Source: a virus. Taken from it: DNA of 20,933 nt. Positions 8,483-19,076 of the stretch are shown piece after piece. The stretch is from IMG/VR virus record IMGVR_UViG_3300037493_002936, positions 1 to 20,933 of that record; one strand, 5' to 3'. Position 1 is the stretch's first letter; the number at the start of each line of letters is the position of its first letter. The translations under genes were made by a program, and so were the position numbers. Under the pieces are notes generated by a model, which did no database searches, was not told where the DNA came from, and worked only from the letters and a program-made list of their open reading frames with translations.

Positions 8483-8914
8483 ATGGATATCGGATTTCCA
8501 AACCTTGACTTCTTCAGTCTTGTCCAACAATGTGGATTCCCTATAGCACTAGCAGTGGTATGTGGATGGTTCATAATGCAAGCAATTTCATTAGTGCTTG
8601 GATCAGTAATAAAATCAATCAAAAAAATTATAGGACTCATTAAGTCGATGGACGGCAGAGTGCGTCAAATGAATGTTGATATATTGGAATTAGATATATT
8701 AGTATCTAATTCACTTGATGTTGATTCACTTCCGTTAAAAGTTCATCATGAAGTTGCAGCAATAATGAATAATAACGGGGCTCCTCCTGTTACGCTTACA
8801 CCAAAGAAACAATCAACTATAATGAAAAAGATTTCTGATACTGTTGAAAAAGCTCAAGAAGTAGTTGATGATGCTACTAAAATAGTTGAGAAAGTAGGAA
8901 AACTTAAGAAATGA
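8483..8914 (+). CDS. Membrane-anchored protein, 143 aa (holin-like paralogue 1)
   Basis: First gene after the late promoter. The N-terminus has one membrane helix (residues about 16-40, CGFPIALAVVCGWFIMQAISLVLG), then a basic stretch and a long helical, probably coiled-coil tail ending TVEKAQEVVDDATKIVEKVGKLKK. The layout of an N-terminal FP.A-type helix, a following helix and a block resembling 'R.R.M..DILELDILVSNSL' is shared with the next two genes, so the three look like tandem paralogues. The architecture is like that of small holin-like proteins of the BhlA/UviB type. Its stop overlaps the next start (ATGA). A membrane role in lysis or in assembly of the curli-like secretion system is inferred. 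Confidence 0.78.
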   Translation: MDIGFPNLDFFSLVQQCGFPIALAVVCGWFIMQAISLVLGSVIKSIKKIIGLIKSMDGRVRQMNVDILELDILVSNSLDVDSLPLKVHHEVAAIMNNNGAPPVTLTPKKQSTIMKKISDTVEKAQEVVDDATKIVEKVGKLKK

Positions 8915-9195
8915 ATCCAGAATATATTAAATTCTTTTCTGACACATTAACTCCAATACTTGGTAGTTGTGTACTTGGAGCATTCATATTTACAGCATTA
9001 AAATTTGTTTTGGGCGATGTTATTACTTCAGTTAAAACATTAGCAAGTATTGTAATGGCTTTAGAGAATAGAGTTAAAACTTGTTCACATGAATTAATTA
9101 AAATTGATGTAACTATATCATCAGTATTAGGACTTAGACCAGATTTGGATAGAATATCCAGAATGGATGGCAAAAATGATGCTAGGAGAGACTAA
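8911..9195 (+). CDS. Membrane-anchored protein, 94 aa (holin-like paralogue 2)
   Basis: A 94-aa protein with an N-terminal membrane helix (residues about 14-35, TPILGSCVLGAFIFTALKFVLG) followed by VITSVKTLASIVMALENRV and the block HELIKIDVTISSVLGLR. That last block aligns with DNDLLRLTAKLNTVLQMR in the next gene and NVDILELDILVSNSL in the previous one. It starts inside the stop of the previous gene and ends in TAATG shared with the next, so the three are probably made in fixed ratio. Function unknown; holin-like or secretion accessory. Confidence 0.78.
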   Translation: MNPEYIKFFSDTLTPILGSCVLGAFIFTALKFVLGDVITSVKTLASIVMALENRVKTCSHELIKIDVTISSVLGLRPDLDRISRMDGKNDARRD

Positions 9196-9458
9196 TGGAC
9201 ATAACACAAATTGCAGAACTTATAAACAAATATGGTTTTCCAATCATAGCTGCAGGTTATATGTTACGCATGGTAAAGTATGTATGGTCATTTACCATTG
9301 AAGAAATTAATCCTGTATTAGGTGAAGCATCAAAAGAATTAATCACTTTGATTGATAGAATACGATTACTTGATAATGATTTACTTAGACTCACAGCAAA
9401 ACTAAACACTGTGTTACAAATGCGGGAGAATGCACATAAGCAAAAGGATATCGAATGA
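9195..9458 (+). CDS. Membrane-anchored protein, 87 aa (holin-like paralogue 3)
   Basis: An 87-aa protein beginning MDITQIAELINKYGFPIIAAGYM. The membrane helix covers residues about 14-34, and the rest is amphipathic helix (ELITLIDRIRLLDNDLLRLTAKLNTVLQMR). I recall very similar small proteins in marine T4-like phages, without known function. The start overlaps the previous stop (TAATG), and the end overlaps the CsgF-like start (ATGA). The BhlA/UviB-like layout suggests a holin or a small inner-membrane oligomer. Direct coupling to csgF makes a link with the secretion genes possible. Confidence 0.8.
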   Translation: MDITQIAELINKYGFPIIAAGYMLRMVKYVWSFTIEEINPVLGEASKELITLIDRIRLLDNDLLRLTAKLNTVLQMRENAHKQKDIE

Positions 9459-9883
9459 GAATTCTAATATTATTTTTATTATCAAGTAATGTATTAGCAG
9501 AACAAACTTTTTCATTTAAATCACCTGCATTTAGTGGTATAGGATATTCTTCACATGTTCAAACAATAGAGAATACTGAAACTACTAGAAAACAAGCATT
9601 AGAGGCACAGAAATTACAAGATGCCAAGGATGCTGCAGCATTAGTTAAGAACACGAATCTTTCGAAATTTCTGAATAACTTTGAGAGTCGTGTTTATGCA
9701 CAACTGTCAACTCAATTGATTAATAACTTATTTGGTGAAAATCCAAAGAATAGTGGAACAGTTCAGATTGAAGGTAATACTATAACATATACCAAGACAG
9801 CTGACCAAATATCAATGACTATTACTGGTGCAGATGGTAATGTAACACAAGTAATAATACCGGTCGGTAGTTTTACATTCTAA
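9455..9883 (+). CDS. csgF: CsgF-like curli assembly factor
   Basis: A 142-aa exported protein. The signal peptide is residues 1-15 (MRILILFLLSSNVLA), and the mature end starts EQTFSFKSPAFSG. This matches the N-terminus of E. coli CsgF (TMTFQFRNPNFGG), the segment that inserts into the CsgG pore. The middle is a helix, and the C-terminal part (NTITYTKTADQISMTITGADGNVTQVIIPVGSF) fits the CsgF beta-sheet domain, equivalent to DRKTGQTSTIQVSG in E. coli. CsgF caps CsgG at the cell surface and couples secretion to nucleation of the curli fibre. The stop overlaps the csgG start (TAATG), as expected of partners. The identification rests on the N-terminal match plus linkage to csgG. Confidence 0.87.
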   Translation: MRILILFLLSSNVLAEQTFSFKSPAFSGIGYSSHVQTIENTETTRKQALEAQKLQDAKDAAALVKNTNLSKFLNNFESRVYAQLSTQLINNLFGENPKNSGTVQIEGNTITYTKTADQISMTITGADGNVTQVIIPVGSFTF

Positions 9884-10671
9884 TGCGTATTATATTATTG
9901 TGCATATTATTAACTGGATGTTCTGGTGGTATATTAACTCCGTTTAATGTATTCACTAATGAACCTGAAGTATTGGCATTTAAGGAAAAAAGAGAAATAA
10001 TCTTACCTCCTCCTAAAGACGGTAAGGTAGTTGTTGCTGTATATTCATTTTTGGATAAGACTGGTCAACGAAAAGATTCTGCTACTATAGCAAAATTATC
10101 ATCCGCTGTAACACAAGGTGGTGAATCTATATTATTAAAATCATTGGAAGATGCTGGGGAAGGTAATTGGTTTAGAGTTGTAGAACGAGTAGGGCTAGAT
10201 AATTTATTAAAAGAAAGACAATTGATTAGGTCTGCTCGTGATGAAGCACAAGATGATAAACAAATAGGTTCGATTCTTTATGCTGGTATGATAATTGAAG
10301 GATCAATAGTATCATATGATACTAATATTAGAACTGGTGGTATTGGTCTTCGTTATATGGGAATTGGACCAGATACACAATATCAGGAAGATATGGTAAC
10401 TGTTTCATTAAGGGCAATTAGTACACAAACTGGTGAAGTATTACTCACTATTAATGTACAAAAGACGATCTTAAGTTATACGGTTGGTGTTGCTGTATTT
10501 AAGTTTTTTGATATGGGAACACAATCATTTGAAAATGAAGTTGGTGCTACTAAAACTGAGGCAGGAATATATGCATTGAAAGCAGCATTAGATTTAGCAG
10601 TAGAAGAATTAATTATTAAAGGTGAAAGAAAAAGATTATGGAAATTTTCATCCACTTTTAGGAATAATTAA
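9883..10671 (+). CDS. csgG: CsgG-like outer-membrane curli secretion channel (lipoprotein)
   Basis: A 262-aa homologue of CsgG, the nonameric outer-membrane pore of type VIII (curli) secretion. The lipobox is LLTGC, with the acylated Cys at residue 13. Conserved blocks include VVVAVYSFLDKTGQ, FRVVERVGLDNLLKERQLIRSARDE, MIIEGSIVSYDTNIRTGG, GLRYMGIGPDTQYQEDMVTVSLR and ISTQTGEVLLTINVQKTILSY, each close to E. coli CsgG (for example GARYFGIGADTQYQ and SKTILSY). The length is near the usual 277 aa. The loop that forms the pore constriction in E. coli (Y51, N55, F56) reads RKDSATIAKLSS here and does not keep those residues. It sits between csgF and the curlin-repeat gene. No csgE, csgC or csgD is visible. 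Confidence 0.95.
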   Translation: MRIILLCILLTGCSGGILTPFNVFTNEPEVLAFKEKREIILPPPKDGKVVVAVYSFLDKTGQRKDSATIAKLSSAVTQGGESILLKSLEDAGEGNWFRVVERVGLDNLLKERQLIRSARDEAQDDKQIGSILYAGMIIEGSIVSYDTNIRTGGIGLRYMGIGPDTQYQEDMVTVSLRAISTQTGEVLLTINVQKTILSYTVGVAVFKFFDMGTQSFENEVGATKTEAGIYALKAALDLAVEELIIKGERKRLWKFSSTFRNN

Positions 10672-11382
10672 ATGAACATCATAAGAAATATATTATTGTT
10701 TGTTATGCTTACAATAATAAACCAATCATCAATTGGAGACAGTGGCGGTAATTCTGTTTATATTGATCAAACTAATGCTGATAATTCTACTGTAAATATT
10801 ACACAAACAGGAGCAAATAATACTGTAGGTGACCCAGATTCTATTGGTTCACCGTCTTTTCAAATAGAAGGCAACTCTATGTTGTTTGATATTATACAAG
10901 ATGGTATGAATAATGCTATAACAGGTAATCTAATTGGCGGCGGAGCAACTGCTGATATTACTCAAACTGGTAATAGCAACTCTACCGATTTAAATATGGG
11001 TAATATGGGTACTGGTTCAGGTACTTTAAGTTTGAACTTCACTGGTAGTAATAACACATCAGTATTGAATATTGGTGTATTACATGATTCTGGAAACTAT
11101 TCATATCTTTCAAACATTACAGGTAGTAATAACACTTTAACGAGCACTATTAATAGTAAATATACTGAGAATAATTTTATTGTAACGGGGTCAGGTAATG
11201 CAATCACAACTACTCAAACTGGGGCTAATGGTACTAATCTTATTGCTGGTAATAATATCGCCATATCCAATATTGGAAGCAATAATACCATAGGGATTAG
11301 TCAAGATGGAACAACAAATCCAAATTCGGCCATTGTCAATCTTACTGGTTCTGATGCTACTGTTAATATCACGCAACATTAA
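10672..11382 (+). CDS. Curlin-repeat (CsgA/CsgB-like) amyloid-type secreted protein
   Basis: A 236-aa protein with an N-terminal hydrophobic export signal (residues about 1-22) and then Asn/Gly/Thr/Ser-rich imperfect repeats. Repeat cores resembling the curlin pattern (x-I-x-Q-x-G-x-x-N) are seen near residues 42-52 (NITQTGANNTV), 74-83 (IIQDGMNNAI), 96-104 (ITQTGNSNS), 122-129 (NFTGSNNT), 149-155 (ITGSNNT), 181-188 and 200-213 (IGSNNTIGISQDG), ending VNITQH. There is almost no Lys or Arg, and Cys is absent from the repeats. This is how CsgA and CsgB, the subunits of curli amyloid, look; the family is not exact, so no symbol is given. It is the natural substrate of the CsgG channel next to it. 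Its last 25 codons overlap the FecR-domain gene in another frame. Confidence 0.88.
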   Translation: MNIIRNILLFVMLTIINQSSIGDSGGNSVYIDQTNADNSTVNITQTGANNTVGDPDSIGSPSFQIEGNSMLFDIIQDGMNNAITGNLIGGGATADITQTGNSNSTDLNMGNMGTGSGTLSLNFTGSNNTSVLNIGVLHDSGNYSYLSNITGSNNTLTSTINSKYTENNFIVTGSGNAITTTQTGANGTNLIAGNNIAISNIGSNNTIGISQDGTTNPNSAIVNLTGSDATVNITQH

Positions 11383-12364
11383 TGCTGGTATTGGTACAGT
11401 AATAAATCATAAAGGCAATGCTTCTATTACACGTGATAAGACAGTAATAGAATCAAAGAAAGATGTTAGTATAGAATCATTAGATATAGTTGAAACAGGT
11501 AAAGGTGAAGTAGGTATATCTTTTGATGATGATACACAAGTAAAAGTAACAGATAATAGTAAGTTGGTGATAGATGATTTCGTCTATGATCCTAATAACA
11601 AGTCTGTCGGTAAGTTGGCATTGAAATGTGCTATTGGTACTGTACGATACGCCTCTGGTAATATTGCACATGCTAATAATAAGAATGTGGCTATTAATAC
11701 ACCTACAGCAACTATAGCGGTTCGAGGTACAGCATTCACTATGACAGTTGATGAAATTGGTCAGTCAATGGTTATATTGTTACCTAACTTAGATGGTTCA
11801 GTAGGTGAAATTGAAGTTAGAACCGCGGTAGGTTCTGTTGTATTGAATCAAGCTTTTCAAGCAACAGTAACTACTTCAAATGAAATTAAACCTATGAAGC
11901 CGGTGGTGTTATTAATAAATGAATCTGCTATCACTAATTTTATGATAGTTGCTCCACCGAAGGAAATAGCTCAAAAAATGATTGAGGATAATAAATCTGG
12001 TTCATCACTAGATTTTAATGGATTAGATAAAGATGCTTTATCTGTAAGAGTATTCATTGATCCATATGCAAAGTTTAATGAATTAAATGTTGATGCTTTA
12101 TTAATAGAATATTTGACAAATGGATTAGAAGATGCTTTTGCGGTAAGTACATTTGCTCCTGGATATAATTCACAGAATCAAGTTTACATATTTGATAAAC
12201 AGACTAATTGGATGATACAAAGATCAGTGAAACAGAGTGCTACATTATTAATCAACAAAGACCGAGGTTACAATATAACACTTGTACAGGATGGAACAAC
12301 AGTAAAATTGCAAAGTGCAGATACAACCACTAATAAAATTTTTATTAAACAAGGAGCAAATTAA
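11306..12364 (+). CDS. Secreted FecR-domain protein
   Basis: A 352-aa protein. The ATG at 11306 lies 77 bases inside the curlin-repeat gene, in the +1 frame, and gives a proper signal peptide (residues 1-27: Arg at 8, a hydrophobic core SILLVLMLLL, then RNINA before GIGTV). The ATG at 11354 would leave too little n-region. The mature part begins with a FecR-type beta domain: GIGTVINHKGNASITR, IVETGKGEVGISFDDDTQVKV, and AINTPTATIAVRGTAFT at about 129-145, the hallmark of the family. FecR domains occur in exported beta-rich proteins and in iron-signal regulators; no sigma-interacting N-terminus or inner-membrane helix is present, so a regulator is unlikely. An exported partner of the curli-like fibre is inferred. 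The C-terminal half is not recognised. Confidence 0.87.
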   Translation: MEQQIQIRPLSILLVLMLLLISRNINAGIGTVINHKGNASITRDKTVIESKKDVSIESLDIVETGKGEVGISFDDDTQVKVTDNSKLVIDDFVYDPNNKSVGKLALKCAIGTVRYASGNIAHANNKNVAINTPTATIAVRGTAFTMTVDEIGQSMVILLPNLDGSVGEIEVRTAVGSVVLNQAFQATVTTSNEIKPMKPVVLLINESAITNFMIVAPPKEIAQKMIEDNKSGSSLDFNGLDKDALSVRVFIDPYAKFNELNVDALLIEYLTNGLEDAFAVSTFAPGYNSQNQVYIFDKQTNWMIQRSVKQSATLLINKDRGYNITLVQDGTTVKLQSADTTTNKIFIKQGAN

Positions 12365-12365
12365 T

Positions 12366-12722
12366 ATGGCAGATATAGTAGTGAGAAAACCTAGAAAACC
12401 AGTAATTAAAAAGGAAATTGAACCAATGATTGATTTAGCAAAAGAACCTACACCAGTCACACCTGTAGCAAAAGAAGATTTTATGACTTCTAAATGGCGA
12501 CCAATGATGGCTATTAGTTATATGGCAATTTGTCTATTTGACTTTATGGTCGGTCCAATTCTATATAATGTACTTCAATATATGAATCCTGGACAACATT
12601 TAGAAATGTGGCAAGCAGTTACTTTACAGGGCGGCGGATTATATCATCTATCCATGGGTGCTATTATCGGTATTACTGCTTTTGGTAGAACTAAAGAAAA
12701 AATGGCTGAAGTTAAAGAATAA
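12366..12722 (+). CDS. Probable holin
   Basis: A 118-aa membrane protein, the last gene of the late operon. The frame is open from a GTG at 12315, but the ATG at 12366, two bases after the previous stop and with AAGGAG upstream, is the likely start. A charged, Pro-rich cytoplasmic N-terminus (residues 1-45) is followed by SKWRPMMAISYMAICLFDFMVGPILYNVLQY (first helix). A second hydrophobic part, GGGLYHLSMGAIIGITAFG, precedes a charged tail TKEKMAEVKE. The W-R-P...D-F...G-P arrangement resembles the gene-transfer-agent/phage 3TM holin family, with one helix fewer evident. A holin would release the GH19 endolysin encoded at 16991-17767, which has no signal peptide. Annotation by architecture. 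Confidence 0.72.
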   Translation: MADIVVRKPRKPVIKKEIEPMIDLAKEPTPVTPVAKEDFMTSKWRPMMAISYMAICLFDFMVGPILYNVLQYMNPGQHLEMWQAVTLQGGGLYHLSMGAIIGITAFGRTKEKMAEVKE

Positions 12723-12738
12723 TGTATTAAATATGATA

Positions 12739-12773
12739 CATAGTGTACATAATAAGTCTTTATGTACACTATG
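12739..12773. terminator. Hairpin terminator between convergent operons
   Basis: A perfect 12-bp stem (CATAGTGTACAT at 12739-12750 with ATGTACACTATG at 12762-12773) has an 11-base loop. It lies between the end of the plus-strand operon and the minus-strand operon. T-containing tracts flank it on both strands but there is no long U run. The 7-mer TGATACA occurs directly on both sides (12734-12740 and 12774-12780). A bidirectional terminator or mRNA 3'-end stabiliser is likely. The rest of 12723-12830 holds nothing else I can identify. Confidence 0.65.
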
Positions 12774-12830
12774 TGATACATTTACCTATTCAAAATATAA
12801 CAAGTAACTTCAAATCCTAATCTGATATCT

Positions 12831-13168: not shown

Positions 13169-15253
13169 CTACTTGCTTGTTGCGACAAATGTACCTTTCC
13201 AGTTCTTAGGGAAAGATGGATCACTCATATATCCATGAATTCTTTTACGCATCATATCATAATAGTAATCTAATTCACCATTGAATGAACCTTTCAAATC
13301 CATACAATGTGTAATGGCGTATGCCCATTCTTGTTTGCAATAATGTTTGAACATTTTCTTATGAATCGTTCTAGCGTTTGCAAATTCTAATCTATTATAT
13401 CTGTCTGGTTGTAATACTGTATAGATATCCAATCCAATTGTCTTACCTTTTACTGCAATGTTGTCTAACTTAATAACGAAATAATCATCTTTAACAAGTT
13501 TAGCAGTTTCTGGTCCAATGATTAATAATACACCATAAGACTTAGTTTGTCCTTCTAATCTAGCAGCAGTAGATACTGAGTCGCCTAATACATCATATCC
13601 AAATCTAGATTTAGAACCAATGTTACCTATAAGAGTTTGACCAGTATTAACACCAGCACCCATACCAATAATTGGTTTACCTTGTGCTACTAGAGTTTCA
13701 TTGAATCCATCAACAGAAGCAATCATTTCTAAGGCTGTTTTAACAGCATTCTTTGCATGATTGATATCATCTAAAGGTGCACCGTGAACGTGAAGACTAG
13801 CATCTCCAATAAACTTGATAAGACAACCATCATTCTTTAATACTGGTTCTGATATAGCAGTCATATAATCATTCATAATAGAAGTTAATCCTTCTACATC
13901 ATCACCATAAGATTCACCTAGAGTGGTAAAACCTCTGAGGTCGGTCATAACAATAGATAATTCTTTACGTTCACCACCAAGTTTAATCAGTTCTGGATTC
14001 TTTTGTAATCTTTCAACCATTACTGGAGAAACATAAGAACCAAATTGTTTTTTAATTTGGAGTTTCTGACCTAATTCAGTTAAGAATTTGACCGTATAAG
14101 TGTGACCATAAACTGCGACAATTGCGAATACAGGTACTGTAATATCGAAAAGATAATATAGGTTGGTATATAGATAATTAGAAATAGGATAAAGAGAGAT
14201 AATGATGCTACAAAATATAAGAATTCCATATTTCCACCGTGCTATTAAAATTGATATGATACTTAATACCAATACAGTAAGTAACTCTGCACCAGTGCTC
14301 CAATCGGGTCTTGATATATTTATACCTTTAGTAAGTGTGTCTAAAATTGCTGCTTGAACATGATGTGGAAAGACTGATCCAGCAGAAGTTGCAACGGGGT
14401 TATTGAGCCCTCTTCCAGTGAGTCCAACAATGACGATTGCTCCACTAAAGGACTCTGGGAGTTTGCTTGATGAATATTCACTAATGGTATTTGGTTTAAT
14501 CCAAATGCGACCGAGGGAGTCTGTATTGATTCTTCCGAACTTTGGTATTCTGACTGCTTCGATTGATCCATTGTTGACTTTGACTTGAAATGATGGATCT
14601 CCTGATGCCACACGCAAGGTTTCGAGACTGATACTCGGATACAATAATCCTTTGGAACTGACCACCATTGGGATTCTTCGGGTAACGCCATCAATTTCTG
14701 GGAGTGTATTAACAACCCCAATACCATTAGCATTATCATTGAAGACTTGTATATTCGGAAGTATGTTTTCATATTTTACTCCTACATCACCAGTACCTAT
14801 AACAGAAACTCCTGGTCTAAATGGTTTATATGTTTCGGTGAAAGGTTCATTAGTTCCAGTTTGAGGTAGAACAACTGGATATACCTGAAGAACTTGTGTT
14901 AATGTATCATCTTGACCAAATCTATCTGCTTCAGGCATAAACAGATTAAAAACAACAAGACCTGCGCCTCGAATATACAACTCCTTAATAAGATTAGCAT
15001 ATTCATTCCGAGGGAATGGGAATTGACCTTTTTCTTTAAGGGATGCGTCATCTATATTTACTATTTTTATATCTGATTGTTGAATATCTTGTGTAAGTAA
15101 AGTATCAAAATACCTCAACCTTACTGATTCTACAAAAGATGGGTCAACTACTCTTAACCCTATAATTAAACCTAATGTTACTAACGATAACCATGGAGAC
15201 AAGAGTAGTTTTTTCATATTATTGGTGTACTGGTATTGAAATGATTGGGTCAT
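13169..15253 (-). CDS. CHASE2-domain class III adenylate/guanylate cyclase
   Basis: A full-length receptor cyclase of up to 694 aa. Layout: a membrane helix near residues 16-34; a CHASE2 extracytoplasmic sensor domain (about 35-315, with VRLRYFDTLL, IKIVNIDDASL, NIDGVTRR-type IDGVTRRIPMVV and AIVIVGLTG); three membrane helices (about 321-386); and a class III cyclase domain (about 428-590). Metal aspartates D438 (VMTDLRGFT) and D484 (FIGDA) are present. K480 and D554 fit adenine recognition, so ATP to cAMP is favoured. R565 is kept, but the transition-state Asn is Ser561 (VSTAARLE instead of VN.AARLE). The ATG at 15253 overlaps the previous gene by 35 bases; the ATG at 15217 (MKKLLLSPW), one base after that stop, is an equally likely start (682 aa). 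The gene is intact and has local base composition. Confidence 0.93.
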   Translation of the reverse strand: MTQSFQYQYTNNMKKLLLSPWLSLVTLGLIIGLRVVDPSFVESVRLRYFDTLLTQDIQQSDIKIVNIDDASLKEKGQFPFPRNEYANLIKELYIRGAGLVVFNLFMPEADRFGQDDTLTQVLQVYPVVLPQTGTNEPFTETYKPFRPGVSVIGTGDVGVKYENILPNIQVFNDNANGIGVVNTLPEIDGVTRRIPMVVSSKGLLYPSISLETLRVASGDPSFQVKVNNGSIEAVRIPKFGRINTDSLGRIWIKPNTISEYSSSKLPESFSGAIVIVGLTGRGLNNPVATSAGSVFPHHVQAAILDTLTKGINISRPDWSTGAELLTVLVLSIISILIARWKYGILIFCSIIISLYPISNYLYTNLYYLFDITVPVFAIVAVYGHTYTVKFLTELGQKLQIKKQFGSYVSPVMVERLQKNPELIKLGGERKELSIVMTDLRGFTTLGESYGDDVEGLTSIMNDYMTAISEPVLKNDGCLIKFIGDASLHVHGAPLDDINHAKNAVKTALEMIASVDGFNETLVAQGKPIIGMGAGVNTGQTLIGNIGSKSRFGYDVLGDSVSTAARLEGQTKSYGVLLIIGPETAKLVKDDYFVIKLDNIAVKGKTIGLDIYTVLQPDRYNRLEFANARTIHKKMFKHYCKQEWAYAITHCMDLKGSFNGELDYYYDMMRKRIHGYMSDPSFPKNWKGTFVATSK

Positions 15254-15560
15254 CCCTCATTATTGCTTCAAGAACAACAATATCTTTTTTTAATACTTTC
15301 AAAGTTGCAGCAAGTTGTTGTTTGTATATTGGTTTTTTACATTTCTGTATAAAATTACACGGCATTGGAGCAAACCCATCAATAATTATTTTAGAATTTA
15401 ATAATGATGTTTCTGCTATATGTTTATTAAATATTTTAACTTCATCTATAAGATCAATATCACATTCAGGACATATTGCAGTAGGGTTTACTTGTATATC
15501 TCCAGCAGCAAACATAGGTATTGAAAATAATAGTATAGATAATAAGAGTAATTTTTTCAT
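15219..15560 (-). CDS. Small secreted protein, 113 aa
   Basis: A 113-aa protein with a clear signal peptide (MKKLLLLSILLFSIPMFA, cut before AGD). The mature part has four Cys (CPEC near residues 34-37 and CNFIQKC near 68-74), suggesting two disulfides in the periplasm. The rest is mixed helix ending DDPIISIPVHQ. Its start overlaps the previous stop (TGATG), and it lies directly before the CHASE2 cyclase, so a periplasmic partner or ligand-binding aid for that sensor is conceivable but unproven. No family recognised. Confidence 0.78.
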   Translation of the reverse strand: MKKLLLLSILLFSIPMFAAGDIQVNPTAICPECDIDLIDEVKIFNKHIAETSLLNSKIIIDGFAPMPCNFIQKCKKPIYKQQLAATLKVLKKDIVVLEAIMRDDPIISIPVHQ

Positions 15561-15829
15561 CAGATTGCTTTAGCTGCTGTGGCAGCAATAGTAATTGCCG
15601 TATCAATAATAAACTTCAATTGAGCTTTAGCATTCAAATCAGAAGCATCCATTGTAATAGACTTTTCTAATTGTAAATCAGATAACAGTTCTTGGTACTC
15701 AGAATCAGATATGCTCTTTTCTTCATACATCTTTGTTAATTCAAGTAGCATTGAAGCAATAGTTTCCAGTTCTTCATTTTCTTTAGCATCATAACCATTT
15801 AACTGGTTTAAAACTTCATTTATTTTCAT
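15560..15829 (-). CDS. Small acidic protein with hydrophobic C-terminus, 89 aa
   Basis: An 89-aa protein with an acidic helical N-terminal two thirds (MKINEVLNQLNGYDAKENEELETI..., SDSEYQELLSDLQLEKS) and a C-terminal Ala/Ile-rich segment (LKFIIDTAITIAATAAKAI). The end may be a membrane-active or tail-anchor helix. No signal peptide. The start overlaps the lipoprotein stop (ATGA) and the stop overlaps the next start (TGATG). Position within the lysis genes suggests an envelope role; function unknown. Confidence 0.72.
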   Translation of the reverse strand: MKINEVLNQLNGYDAKENEELETIASMLLELTKMYEEKSISDSEYQELLSDLQLEKSITMDASDLNAKAQLKFIIDTAITIAATAAKAI

Positions 15830-16227
15830 CGTGGCTTAGTTCCTAATACAGTTTGAATAGTTTTAGCAGATCGTTCAATAATGCTCATTTTAGTAGTACA
15901 ATATGTAACGGATGGTTCAGCAGTTTTATATCTATCTGACAATCCTTGAACTTCAAGTAAAAGACTCTTAGACATATTAGTAGCTTCTTCATTATGAGGA
16001 ATACTCGAAGTATAATTCTTGAACTCAGTTGCAACACTTAAGATACTACTAACATTACGTCTAGTTAATGCTACATCAGGACAATCTGTTTTAGATATTT
16101 CTGCCTTTGATCTAACTTTTGTTGCTAGTTGATATTCATTAGCATCAAACCCTGCCATATTATAAGCATCGAGCATTGCACAACCAGATAAGGTTGTAAA
16201 CATTAAAACCAATATTAATCTTTTCAT
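15826..16227 (-). CDS. Outer-membrane-type lipoprotein, 133 aa (candidate o-spanin)
   Basis: A lipoprotein: signal MKRLILVLMFTTLSGC with lipobox LSGC, Cys at residue 16, followed by AMLDAYNM. The +2 residue is Ala, which fits the outer membrane. The mature part is mostly helical, with two further Cys (TDCPD and VTYCTTK) that could form a disulfide. In a lysis region a lipoprotein next to an endolysin may be the outer spanin, but no i-spanin-type partner with an N-terminal membrane anchor and coiled coil is adjacent, so this is only a candidate. Overlaps both neighbours by ATGA. Confidence 0.8.
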   Translation of the reverse strand: MKRLILVLMFTTLSGCAMLDAYNMAGFDANEYQLATKVRSKAEISKTDCPDVALTRRNVSSILSVATEFKNYTSSIPHNEEATNMSKSLLLEVQGLSDRYKTAEPSVTYCTTKMSIIERSAKTIQTVLGTKPR

Positions 16228-16982
16228 TTATTCCAATCTTCGTAATTTGCGACAATAGTTTCCAAAGGTTTTAAATCTTTAGGAATTTTAGGTGAAAAAT
16301 CAATACCAGTTTTAGCCTCTATGTCCTTAACTGATACTACATATTTTGCAATTTGCTTTGGATCTAATTTTTCATTTGGATACCAAAAAGCAATCATACG
16401 TTTATTTTCTGGTTGAATAACAATCTTATAAACATGAGTAGGAATACCTACCTTATTACCCATTGTTTTATAACCTTTATCAAAGTGAGTACCTGTTATT
16501 GCATACACATCTGATTTGGTTGCCCAAGCTCGGACACGTTCTTCTGTTGACTTCCAAATACCTCGATTATTTCCTGGTGCTTGAGGCATCATATTAGATA
16601 AGAAAAAAGATTCAGACATTAACTTAGAGTCAGATACAAAATCTGCTGCCGGAGCCATATGTCCTCTATCCAAACCGGAACCTGTATAATCTTTTAAAGT
16701 TACTCTATACTGAGCGGGAACTTCTGTATCTTCTCGAAAATCATCTTTTCTAGAAGCAGATTTAACTGCAATTTCATCTTTAGTAATATGTTCAACTACA
16801 AAATAAGCTACTTTAGTCTTATAATCATAATTTATAGCATAATCAGATTTACATATGTATTGATTATTGCCTTCTTTAGTTATTTGAGGAGCACCCCAAA
16901 TAGCTACTTTAGGACATTTATCATCAATACCATTGGCAAATACATTACTAGATAACAATAGCAATAATAAAAATTTATTCAT
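16224..16982 (-). CDS. Secreted DNA/RNA non-specific endonuclease (DRGH family)
   Basis: A 252-aa nuclease of the Serratia NucA/EndoG (beta-beta-alpha metal) family. The signal peptide is residues 1-16 (MNKFLLLLLLSSNVFA). The catalytic motif is DRGHMAPAADF (D105-F115), with His108 the general base. The metal-binding region is FFLSNMMPQAPGNNRGIWKSTEERVR (residues 127-151), including the conserved Asn. A later strand block reads VYAITGTHFDKG. It would cut DNA and RNA in the periplasm or after lysis. It is eight bases downstream of the GH19 gene and overlaps the lipoprotein gene. Possible roles: breaking down released nucleic acid, killing competing incoming phage DNA, or feeding nucleotides; these are inferences. 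Confidence 0.92.
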   Translation of the reverse strand: MNKFLLLLLLSSNVFANGIDDKCPKVAIWGAPQITKEGNNQYICKSDYAINYDYKTKVAYFVVEHITKDEIAVKSASRKDDFREDTEVPAQYRVTLKDYTGSGLDRGHMAPAADFVSDSKLMSESFFLSNMMPQAPGNNRGIWKSTEERVRAWATKSDVYAITGTHFDKGYKTMGNKVGIPTHVYKIVIQPENKRMIAFWYPNEKLDPKQIAKYVVSVKDIEAKTGIDFSPKIPKDLKPLETIVANYEDWNK

Positions 16983-16990
16983 ATTATATC

Positions 16991-17767
16991 CTAAAACAAA
17001 TCAGAGAAGAAGTTACCAATTGAATCTAACCAATCATCATCTTTCTCTACTGCTTCGGCATCAGGTATAGCAACTTCAACTAATACAATAGGAGCAATGA
17101 TTGCAGCAGCCACAGCAGGTGCTACAGCAACAACTGGAACTGGTTTAGAAAATACATCTTCATCAATAGCACTTAATGCGATATCATAATGATGTTGTCT
17201 ATCTTTCAAACCAATAGTACCACCATTAATTCTTTTAGTTAATGTAGTAAACTCACTAGAATCACAATATTGATTTAGTTTATTAGTTTGCCAGAAGAAT
17301 GCACCTGAACAAATAGCACCCTCTAATGTTTCACAATATGCAACTGTTTCATCTAATGTTTTACCGATAGACTTTGCAAACTTTGAATAGTTATCTTTAC
17401 CAGTTAATTGAATACATCCTCGACCTCGGAATTTGAATCCATCACCTGAGGCTTCTGTACCATTACCCATTCTATCTGCATAAACCTTATTAGCAATCTT
17501 TTCTGGATTACGATTATAAGGAGCAGCCATTGCAACAGAGATAAATCTTTTTGGCCAAACTTTACAAAGACCATCGGCAGAATAATTCAAGTTTTCTTTC
17601 AAGGCAGTAAACTGAGCAGATTCGTGGCCACATTGTGCCAAGAAAGCAGCAACTCTTTTTCTTGTATTAATTTCATACAATGGTAGAACTTTATTAAGAA
17701 CCTCAAGTAGTGCTTCAGGTTGTTTATTGTTCGGGCATACCTTTTTCAGTTGATCTAATTTTATCAT
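16991..17767 (-). CDS. GH19 (chitinase-type) endolysin
   Basis: A 258-aa glycoside hydrolase family 19 protein acting as peptidoglycan-cleaving endolysin. The catalytic region reads FLAQCGHESAQFTALKENLNYSADGL, with E49 as acid and a second Glu near 58. The substrate groove motif FRGRGCIQLTG spans 113-123, and CSGAFFWQTNKLN and TKRINGG follow. There is no N-terminal signal peptide, so it needs a holin (12366-12722). After the catalytic domain comes an unusual tail: a Pro/Val/Ala-rich hydrophobic stretch (about residues 208-235) and an acidic amphipathic end (EKDDDWLDSIGNFFSDLF). The tail may hold it at the membrane. The start overlaps the preceding stop (ATGA). Confidence 0.93.
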   Translation of the reverse strand: MIKLDQLKKVCPNNKQPEALLEVLNKVLPLYEINTRKRVAAFLAQCGHESAQFTALKENLNYSADGLCKVWPKRFISVAMAAPYNRNPEKIANKVYADRMGNGTEASGDGFKFRGRGCIQLTGKDNYSKFAKSIGKTLDETVAYCETLEGAICSGAFFWQTNKLNQYCDSSEFTTLTKRINGGTIGLKDRQHHYDIALSAIDEDVFSKPVPVVAVAPAVAAAIIAPIVLVEVAIPDAEAVEKDDDWLDSIGNFFSDLF

Positions 17768-18614: not shown

Positions 18615-19076
18615 TTATTCAGTCAATAATTCAACATCATACTTGCCATCACCAATAAGAATCTTTTTCGGTTTCTTATGCTCTGGAATAACATTTTCAA
18701 GATAAATGGATAAAATACCATCAATGAATTCCGCATCTTTTACGATTACGGTCTCTGCTAGTTTTATTGTTTTCTTGAATGGTTTTGCACTAATACCTTT
18801 ATGGAGGTATTCAACTTCATTATCAAATTCACCTTTAGTACCAGCCATAATAAGAACACAATCTTCAACGGTAATTTCTAGTTCTTCCCTGGAAAAACCA
18901 GCAACTGCCAATTCAACAACATATTCATTGTCATTGTATTTAATGATATTATGGGGAGGATACTTATTTGATAATTGATAGTCACTTGATACTCTTTCCA
19001 TATCTTTAAGTAGCCTTTCAATGCCTACGAATTGATTTAGGTGAGCACCAAAAGCCATATGTGCGGTTGTATTCAT
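18615..19076 (-). CDS. hsp20: Small heat shock protein, Hsp20/alpha-crystallin family
   Basis: A 153-aa Hsp20 (IbpA-like) ATP-independent chaperone that holds unfolding proteins. The alpha-crystallin domain spans about residues 40-130: YPPHNIIKYNDNEYVVELAVAGFSREELEITVEDCVLIMAG, then EVEYLHKGISAKPFKKTIKLAETV, and the closing DAEFIDGILSIYLENVIPE, equivalent to A.l.nGvL.i.lp. The I-x-I type C-terminal anchor may be KKILIG. Hsp20 genes are common in T4-like marine phages. A GGAG ribosome site lies 7 bases before the ATG, after a 185-base structured leader. Flanking non-coding elements on both sides suggest a self-contained cassette. Confidence 0.94.
   Translation of the reverse strand: MNTTAHMAFGAHLNQFVGIERLLKDMERVSSDYQLSNKYPPHNIIKYNDNEYVVELAVAGFSREELEITVEDCVLIMAGTKGEFDNEVEYLHKGISAKPFKKTIKLAETVIVKDAEFIDGILSIYLENVIPEHKKPKKILIGDGKYDVELLTE

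Follow-up and report, generated by a model that had tools for sequence, protein, structure and literature searches.

A CHASE2 receptor cyclase of the phage curli module has a variant active site and an exchangeable catalytic domain

Curli genes of phages, which occur across ocean viromes, have posed a puzzle since 2020. They were reported by Zaragoza-Solas 2020 (PMC7029224), and Wittmers 2022 (PMC9599517) added FecR, a 'histidine kinase' and an adenylate cyclase to the set. Podophages described in the consulted part of the latter study carry the module sometimes without a cyclase, so the curli genes can apparently manage without it in some phages. A role in lysis was proposed for the pore of phage Melnitz (Buchholz 2022, PMC9004378), with no discussion of the cyclase in the sections of that paper available to us. 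The cultured phages Melnitz (OM43; L002) and HTVC008M (SAR11; L003) both carry curli genes and an annotated cyclase in one operon; since these isolates carry it and the module had been reported before, the cyclase gene as such is not new. The available sections of the papers on the phage curli module give FecR and adenylate cyclase, and contain nothing on CHASE2, active-site types or domain swapping.

Two bacterial systems are also related to the locus described here. In Sinorhizobium meliloti, CHASE2 cyclases raise cAMP when the outer-membrane barrel NsrA relays a signal to them (PMC13001267), and in Burkholderia the BiofilmReg operon encodes a FecR/LysM protein together with a CHASE2 histidine kinase and has a role in biofilms (PMC5192318). 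New in the present analysis are the presence of both FecR and the cyclase at every phage csgG locus with enough flank, a bacterial FecR-CHASE2 neighbourhood, a variant active site and swaps of the catalytic domain, of which the swappable catalytic domain is the freshest finding.

The window, by which we mean the whole 20,933-nucleotide stretch of DNA analysed, is a 20.9-kb piece of a T4-like phage genome, recognized by PolB and ligase (Pfam) and by UvsX (by eye). Its plus strand encodes s1 (8483-8914), a small membrane protein and paralogue of s2 and s3 (phrog_18771); s2 (8911-9195), a small membrane protein of phrog_18771 and a fixed partner of the module; s3 (9195-9458), a small protein of the same family with a weak holin match; CsgF (9455-9883; Pfam 1e-15); the outer-membrane curli pore CsgG, with a lipoprotein signal (9883-10671; Pfam 3e-54); a curlin-repeat protein (10672-11382; Pfam 1e-5); the cyclase's partner, a secreted FecR-domain protein with a signal-peptide-like N-terminus (11306-12364; Pfam 2e-7; true start probably downstream, near 11354); and a holin-like protein (12315-12722; true start probably 12366), which matched GTA_holin_3TM at 1e-4, just below the Pfam cut-off, as well as the holin family phrog_3427. 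A curlin-like C-terminus of the phage FecR was also considered, but neither a curlin profile nor a motif count supported it. A 15-bp hairpin (12738-12774), possibly a two-way terminator, lies between this operon and a facing one on the minus strand, which contains the cyclase gene. Because the convergent plus-strand genes at 9455-12722 read CsgF-CsgG-curlin-FecR-holin-like, the cyclase is assigned to the phage curli (type VIII secretion) module as its receptor cyclase. An Rfam search of the window found no riboswitch or other RNA; the Melnitz genome contains one at another location. In many related phages the cyclase has in its vicinity a homologue of the window's small heat-shock-like gene (18615-19076, labelled by eye).

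The reading frame at 13169-15253 lies on the minus strand and is at its longest 694 codons, the numbering used for all cyclase residues below. Since homologues align only from residue 13, translation most likely begins at 15217, one base past the stop of the upstream gene, which gives a gene of 682 aa (13169-15217, minus strand) beginning at codon 13 of the longest frame. The encoded protein consists of a confidently modelled CHASE2 extracytoplasmic sensor domain (residues 26-335; 14249-15178, minus strand; PF05226, 5e-36; 125 bits, cut-off 26.3) and a catalytic domain of the class III cyclases (residues 430-605; 13439-13966, minus strand; Guanylate_cyc PF00211, 5e-17, 62 bits against a cut-off of 21.9). 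A single N-terminal transmembrane segment and a hydrophobic transmembrane block at residues 320-383 were evident from hydropathy, and the AlphaFold model (pLDDT 92, from a 94-row alignment) placed three long helices at residues 319-405 and ended in a C-terminal extension; the N-terminal segment and the three helices make four transmembrane helices. The original prediction of an intact phage receptor cyclase with an extracytoplasmic sensor and four membrane helices was thus confirmed by Pfam, hydropathy and AlphaFold, though it had given no strand and had included neither Ser561, Asp554 nor the curli module. The catalytic part of the model matched Pseudomonas aeruginosa CyaB (3r5g_A) with Z 23.3 and an rmsd of 1.6 over 190 residues. 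For the CHASE2 part (pLDDT 95), the best VIA-align match to solved structures reached Z 3.7 over 99 residues, and a Foldseek search against solved structures returned zero matches at E<=0.001.

Both FecR and the cyclase were present at 59 of 59 phage csgG loci with enough flank, a figure that counts loci rather than independent lineages, as do the other linkage figures given here. These comprised 43/43 loci selected with the window's csgG (at least 7 kb of downstream flank) and 16/16 selected with the csgG of HTVC008M (at least 6.5 kb downstream), whilst s2 and s3 occurred in 70/70 and 61/61 loci of the two sets, respectively. The linkage of FecR, cyclase and s2-s3 survives gene inversions and moves, s2 and s3 being kept even when relocated 3' of the cyclase. 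A scan with the phage FecR retrieved only seven close loci. The cyclase has at least 124 relatives in IMG/VR; because of this number, the two cultured phage groups that also carry the cyclase and its fixed place in the curli module, the description of such genes as rare is unsupported. Contigs L084, L085 and L086, from Rhodobacteraceae and Pirellulales metagenome-assembled genomes, carry the phage curli module and are likely misbinned phage DNA; these hits, at 41-47%, were therefore rejected as bacterial homologues.

It had also been suggested that the cyclase belongs to a lysis-type operon and could time lysis. Such a reading, in which a gated pore in the envelope is built from CsgG/CsgF and small holin-like proteins while the cyclase sets the time of lysis by sensing envelope state, draws on the window itself, where the genes upstream of the cyclase (15219-17767, minus strand) encode a secreted protein of 113 aa, a protein of 89 aa, a lipoprotein of 133 aa, a secreted DNA/RNA endonuclease and a GH19 endolysin, and where the curli operon ends with the holin-like gene; s3 adds its weak holin match. 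The lysis role published as a proposal for the Melnitz pore (PMC9004378, as far as consulted) had been extended to the cyclase by the original prediction. However, a lysin was found within 4 kb in only 7/70 loci and a holin in 6/70, all of them from the window's lineage or L044, whereas the conserved linkage is to FecR and curlin. We know of no route from cAMP to lysis. The operon description therefore holds for the window and not for the related loci generally, and because lysis genes adjoin the cyclase only in the window's lineage and L044, a role in lysis timing is weakly supported and we regard it as unlikely. The further suggestion that the receptor senses envelope state is plausible and is favoured here, given that it is consistently accompanied by an outer-membrane pore and a secreted FecR protein.

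The genes that precede csgF also bear on published annotation. In position, the published 'histidine kinases' before csgF correspond to the s2/s3 proteins of about 93 aa. No kinase domain was found in the genes before csgF of the window, Melnitz or HTVC008M, all of which encode phrog_18771 paralogues of about 90-140 aa, and the consulted part of Wittmers 2022 itself calls the 'HK' genes short, diverged and/or paralogous (PMC9599517); on both grounds, the label appears doubtful and looks to be wrong.

Alignment with solved cyclases confirmed the register of the active site. The catalytic domain contains the class III set of two metal-binding aspartates (D438, D484), K480 and D554 for the base and R565 for the transition state; D438, D484, K480 and R565 show no variation among the phage homologues that span them, which upholds the earlier claim that both metal aspartates are present. 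The usual transition-state Asn is missing, its place being taken by Ser561 (codon at 13571-13573, minus strand) throughout the catalytic clade of the window. That clade combines Asp554, Ser561, His488 and His490, in contrast to Thr/Ser, Asn, Ala and Trp elsewhere, and this variant active site was found in 23/23 non-redundant clade members with data and in 0/77 bacterial sequences. Asn occupies position 561 in 52 other phage sequences and in the 77 bacterial ones.

Such a substitution raises the question of whether the domain is dead, or is a pseudo-cyclase that only relays a signal, a reading consistent with Ser in every one of the 23 clade members against Asn in 77/77 bacterial relatives, and with the reported essentiality of this Asn in mammalian adenylyl cyclase (Yan 1997, as cited in the consulted part of PMC4215837). 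Against it, the other catalytic residues are all invariant, Ser and Asn types swap behind the same sensor (see below), and Ma1120 of Mycobacterium avium, an active class III cyclase with the K/D pair, carries Ala at the position of the Asn, and its activity is lost once Asn is introduced (PMC4215837); given this active enzyme, the absence of the Asn is no bar to class III membership. In each of six pairs compared, dN/dS was lower for the catalytic domain (0.03-0.08) than for CHASE2 (0.12-0.27), and for this reason the variant domain is, as judged from sequence comparison, under strong purifying selection and not in decay. We consider an inactive domain decidedly improbable, and the window's protein is expected to be an active adenylate cyclase.

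On at least about ten occasions, a conserved sensor has had its catalytic domain exchanged. A catalytic-domain tree from which the trait columns had been excluded placed the Ser type in one clade, with a support of 99. On the CHASE2 tree the Ser/Asn label required 11 changes, 10 of them forced by well-supported branches, and the Ser type as a single clade was rejected (p about 5e-95). Individual pairs illustrate the exchange: L203 and L202 are 98% identical in CHASE2 and 90-97% in the other module genes, with a catalytic domain at 52%, and L167 and L168 are 91% identical in CHASE2 and about 52% in the catalytic domain, with identity returning at the C-terminus. Further swaps with the sensor kept were seen in L026/L009 and L054/L009, with breakpoints near the domain borders; breakpoints often fell at about residue 405 or in the transmembrane region. 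Melnitz is 58.5% identical to HTVC008M in CHASE2 and 35.9% in the catalytic domain, whilst relative to the window it is 36.6% and 55% identical, respectively. As two cultured isolates show swapping, misassembly cannot account for all of the swaps.

The catalytic domain is not the only mobile part of the module: CsgF-CsgG-FecR, s2-s3 and CHASE2 are each mobile blocks of their own. In a set of 16 loci the catalytic domain tracked PolB (r 0.87) and the curli block did not. Since other blocks swap too and the catalytic domain tracks PolB, no special pressure on the catalytic domain has been demonstrated. A matched divergence of FecR and CHASE2 was likewise not apparent across 16 loci with the phage backbone considered (r about 0.1), leaving the idea of a tight lock-and-key pair unsupported. 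It is conceivable, though on balance rather unlikely, that the exchanges represent mix-and-match signalling, in which one sensor lineage is refitted time and again with Asn- or Ser-type domains as hosts or rival phages select for another product or for escape from some factor that targets the cyclase.

Repeated swapping of alleles could also reflect conflict, if the variant domain made cGMP, cCMP or cUMP, perhaps as a means of targeting or evading a nucleotide-based host defence; the concerted substitutions in the active site, among them two His within the segment that follows the second metal Asp, would be compatible with an altered product. The K/D combination is the usual ATP-selecting pair, and K480/D554 fits it. 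The PycC models of PADLOC scored canonical CHASE2 cyclases at 83-97 bits but the window's protein at 37 bits, and, with other blocks swapping as well, no pressure specific to this domain is shown. We therefore consider another cyclic nucleotide highly improbable, and found no evidence for the earlier suggestion that the gene counters a nucleotide-based defence, matches to Pycsar models being generic to class III cyclases. Kinship with Pycsar was rejected on the weaker PycC score and on a search of 14 related phage records, which found no cNMP-binding protein (PF00027); the same control with canonical cyclases ruled out the different catalytic domain of L168 as a PycC import. That these models score ordinary CHASE2 adenylate cyclases so highly makes them a source of false Pycsar calls.

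The best true bacterial matches to the window's cyclase are mostly from Alphaproteobacteria and are about 30% identical to it. FecR lay within 1.5 kb of the cyclase in 30/60 bacterial CHASE2-cyclase loci from several phyla, the 60 being the 30 with FecR and a further 30 without FecR but with enough flank. Nine of the FecR proteins at bacterial loci passed the Pfam FecR cut-off, some of them within RTX or cadherin adhesins. In L087, L091, L114 and L120 the CHASE2-cyclase is beside, or within about 1.6 kb of, a very large FecR protein, with RTX/cadherin repeats in L087 and L120, the two that were scanned. Within the available flanks, CsgG, CsgF and curlin were found at 0/77 bacterial CHASE2-cyclase loci, and FecR, cyclase and s2/s3 were absent from three alphaproteobacterial csgF loci. 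Most simply, phages would have combined a FecR-CHASE2-cyclase pair with curli genes.

We favour, with moderate confidence, the reading that the window's gene supplies the phage curli module with its receptor, a homodimeric adenylate cyclase coupled to FecR and curli that acts through host cAMP regulators; here we infer the product, the activity, FecR as the input, the host receptor and the benefit to the phage. By analogy with the NsrA-linked cyclases of S. meliloti and the FecR-CHASE2 kinase operon of Burkholderia, FecR or curli export is most likely sensed by the periplasmic domain, and cAMP controlled. CHASE2 would read envelope state in the periplasm, most likely FecR and, via FecR, the export of curlin through CsgG/CsgF, and the four transmembrane helices and linker would relay the signal to the cytoplasmic class III cyclase. 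As a homodimer, the cyclase may then make cAMP from ATP, utilizing the K480/D554 pair, the two metal aspartates and R565, with Ser561 replacing Asn. Since no cNMP-binding protein was encoded in the 14 phage records, the cAMP receptor would have to be that of the host, also for the redirected carbon use that the original prediction had suggested as a possible effect of cAMP, and cAMP acting on host cAMP-binding regulators could tune the infected cell whilst the fibre or pore is built. The link of a receptor cyclase to FecR and a pore, together with the bacterial FecR-CHASE2 neighbours, turns the puzzle of phage curli genes into a testable signalling circuit, and the paired alleles with the same sensor and another catalytic domain are ready-made constructs for the effect of the active-site change. 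The bacterial linkage, moreover, suggests a general rule for CHASE2, an orphan sensor domain.

Among described systems, the modules of HTVC008M and Melnitz resemble that of the window in comprising two small proteins, CsgF, CsgG, curlin, FecR, in some cases a second curlin, and an adenylate cyclase of the same CHASE2-cyclase architecture. The window differs from them in that its cyclase is detached, convergent and preceded by lysis genes and in that a second curlin was not found; the catalytic domain is of the Ser type in the window and Melnitz and of the bacterial-like Asn type in HTVC008M. The second curlin of HTVC008M (L003:10610-11932) has a PA14 domain, possibly a sugar-binding tip on a phage-encoded fibre. 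Ma1120 shares with the window's cyclase the K/D substrate pair and a small residue for the transition-state Asn, and is active, but it has Ala rather than Ser and is not a CHASE2 receptor of a curli module. CyaD1, CyaD2 and CyaK of S. meliloti are, like the window's protein, CHASE2 receptor cyclases, there with NsrA as the envelope partner and cAMP as the product (PMC13001267), whereas bacterial CHASE2 cyclases differ from it in their identity of about 30%, in keeping the transition-state Asn (77/77) and in the absence of curli genes from the available flanks. In Burkholderia BiofilmReg, as in the window, FecR adjoins a CHASE2 receptor, the biofilm role being that of the Burkholderia operon, and its output is a kinase and response regulator rather than a cyclase.
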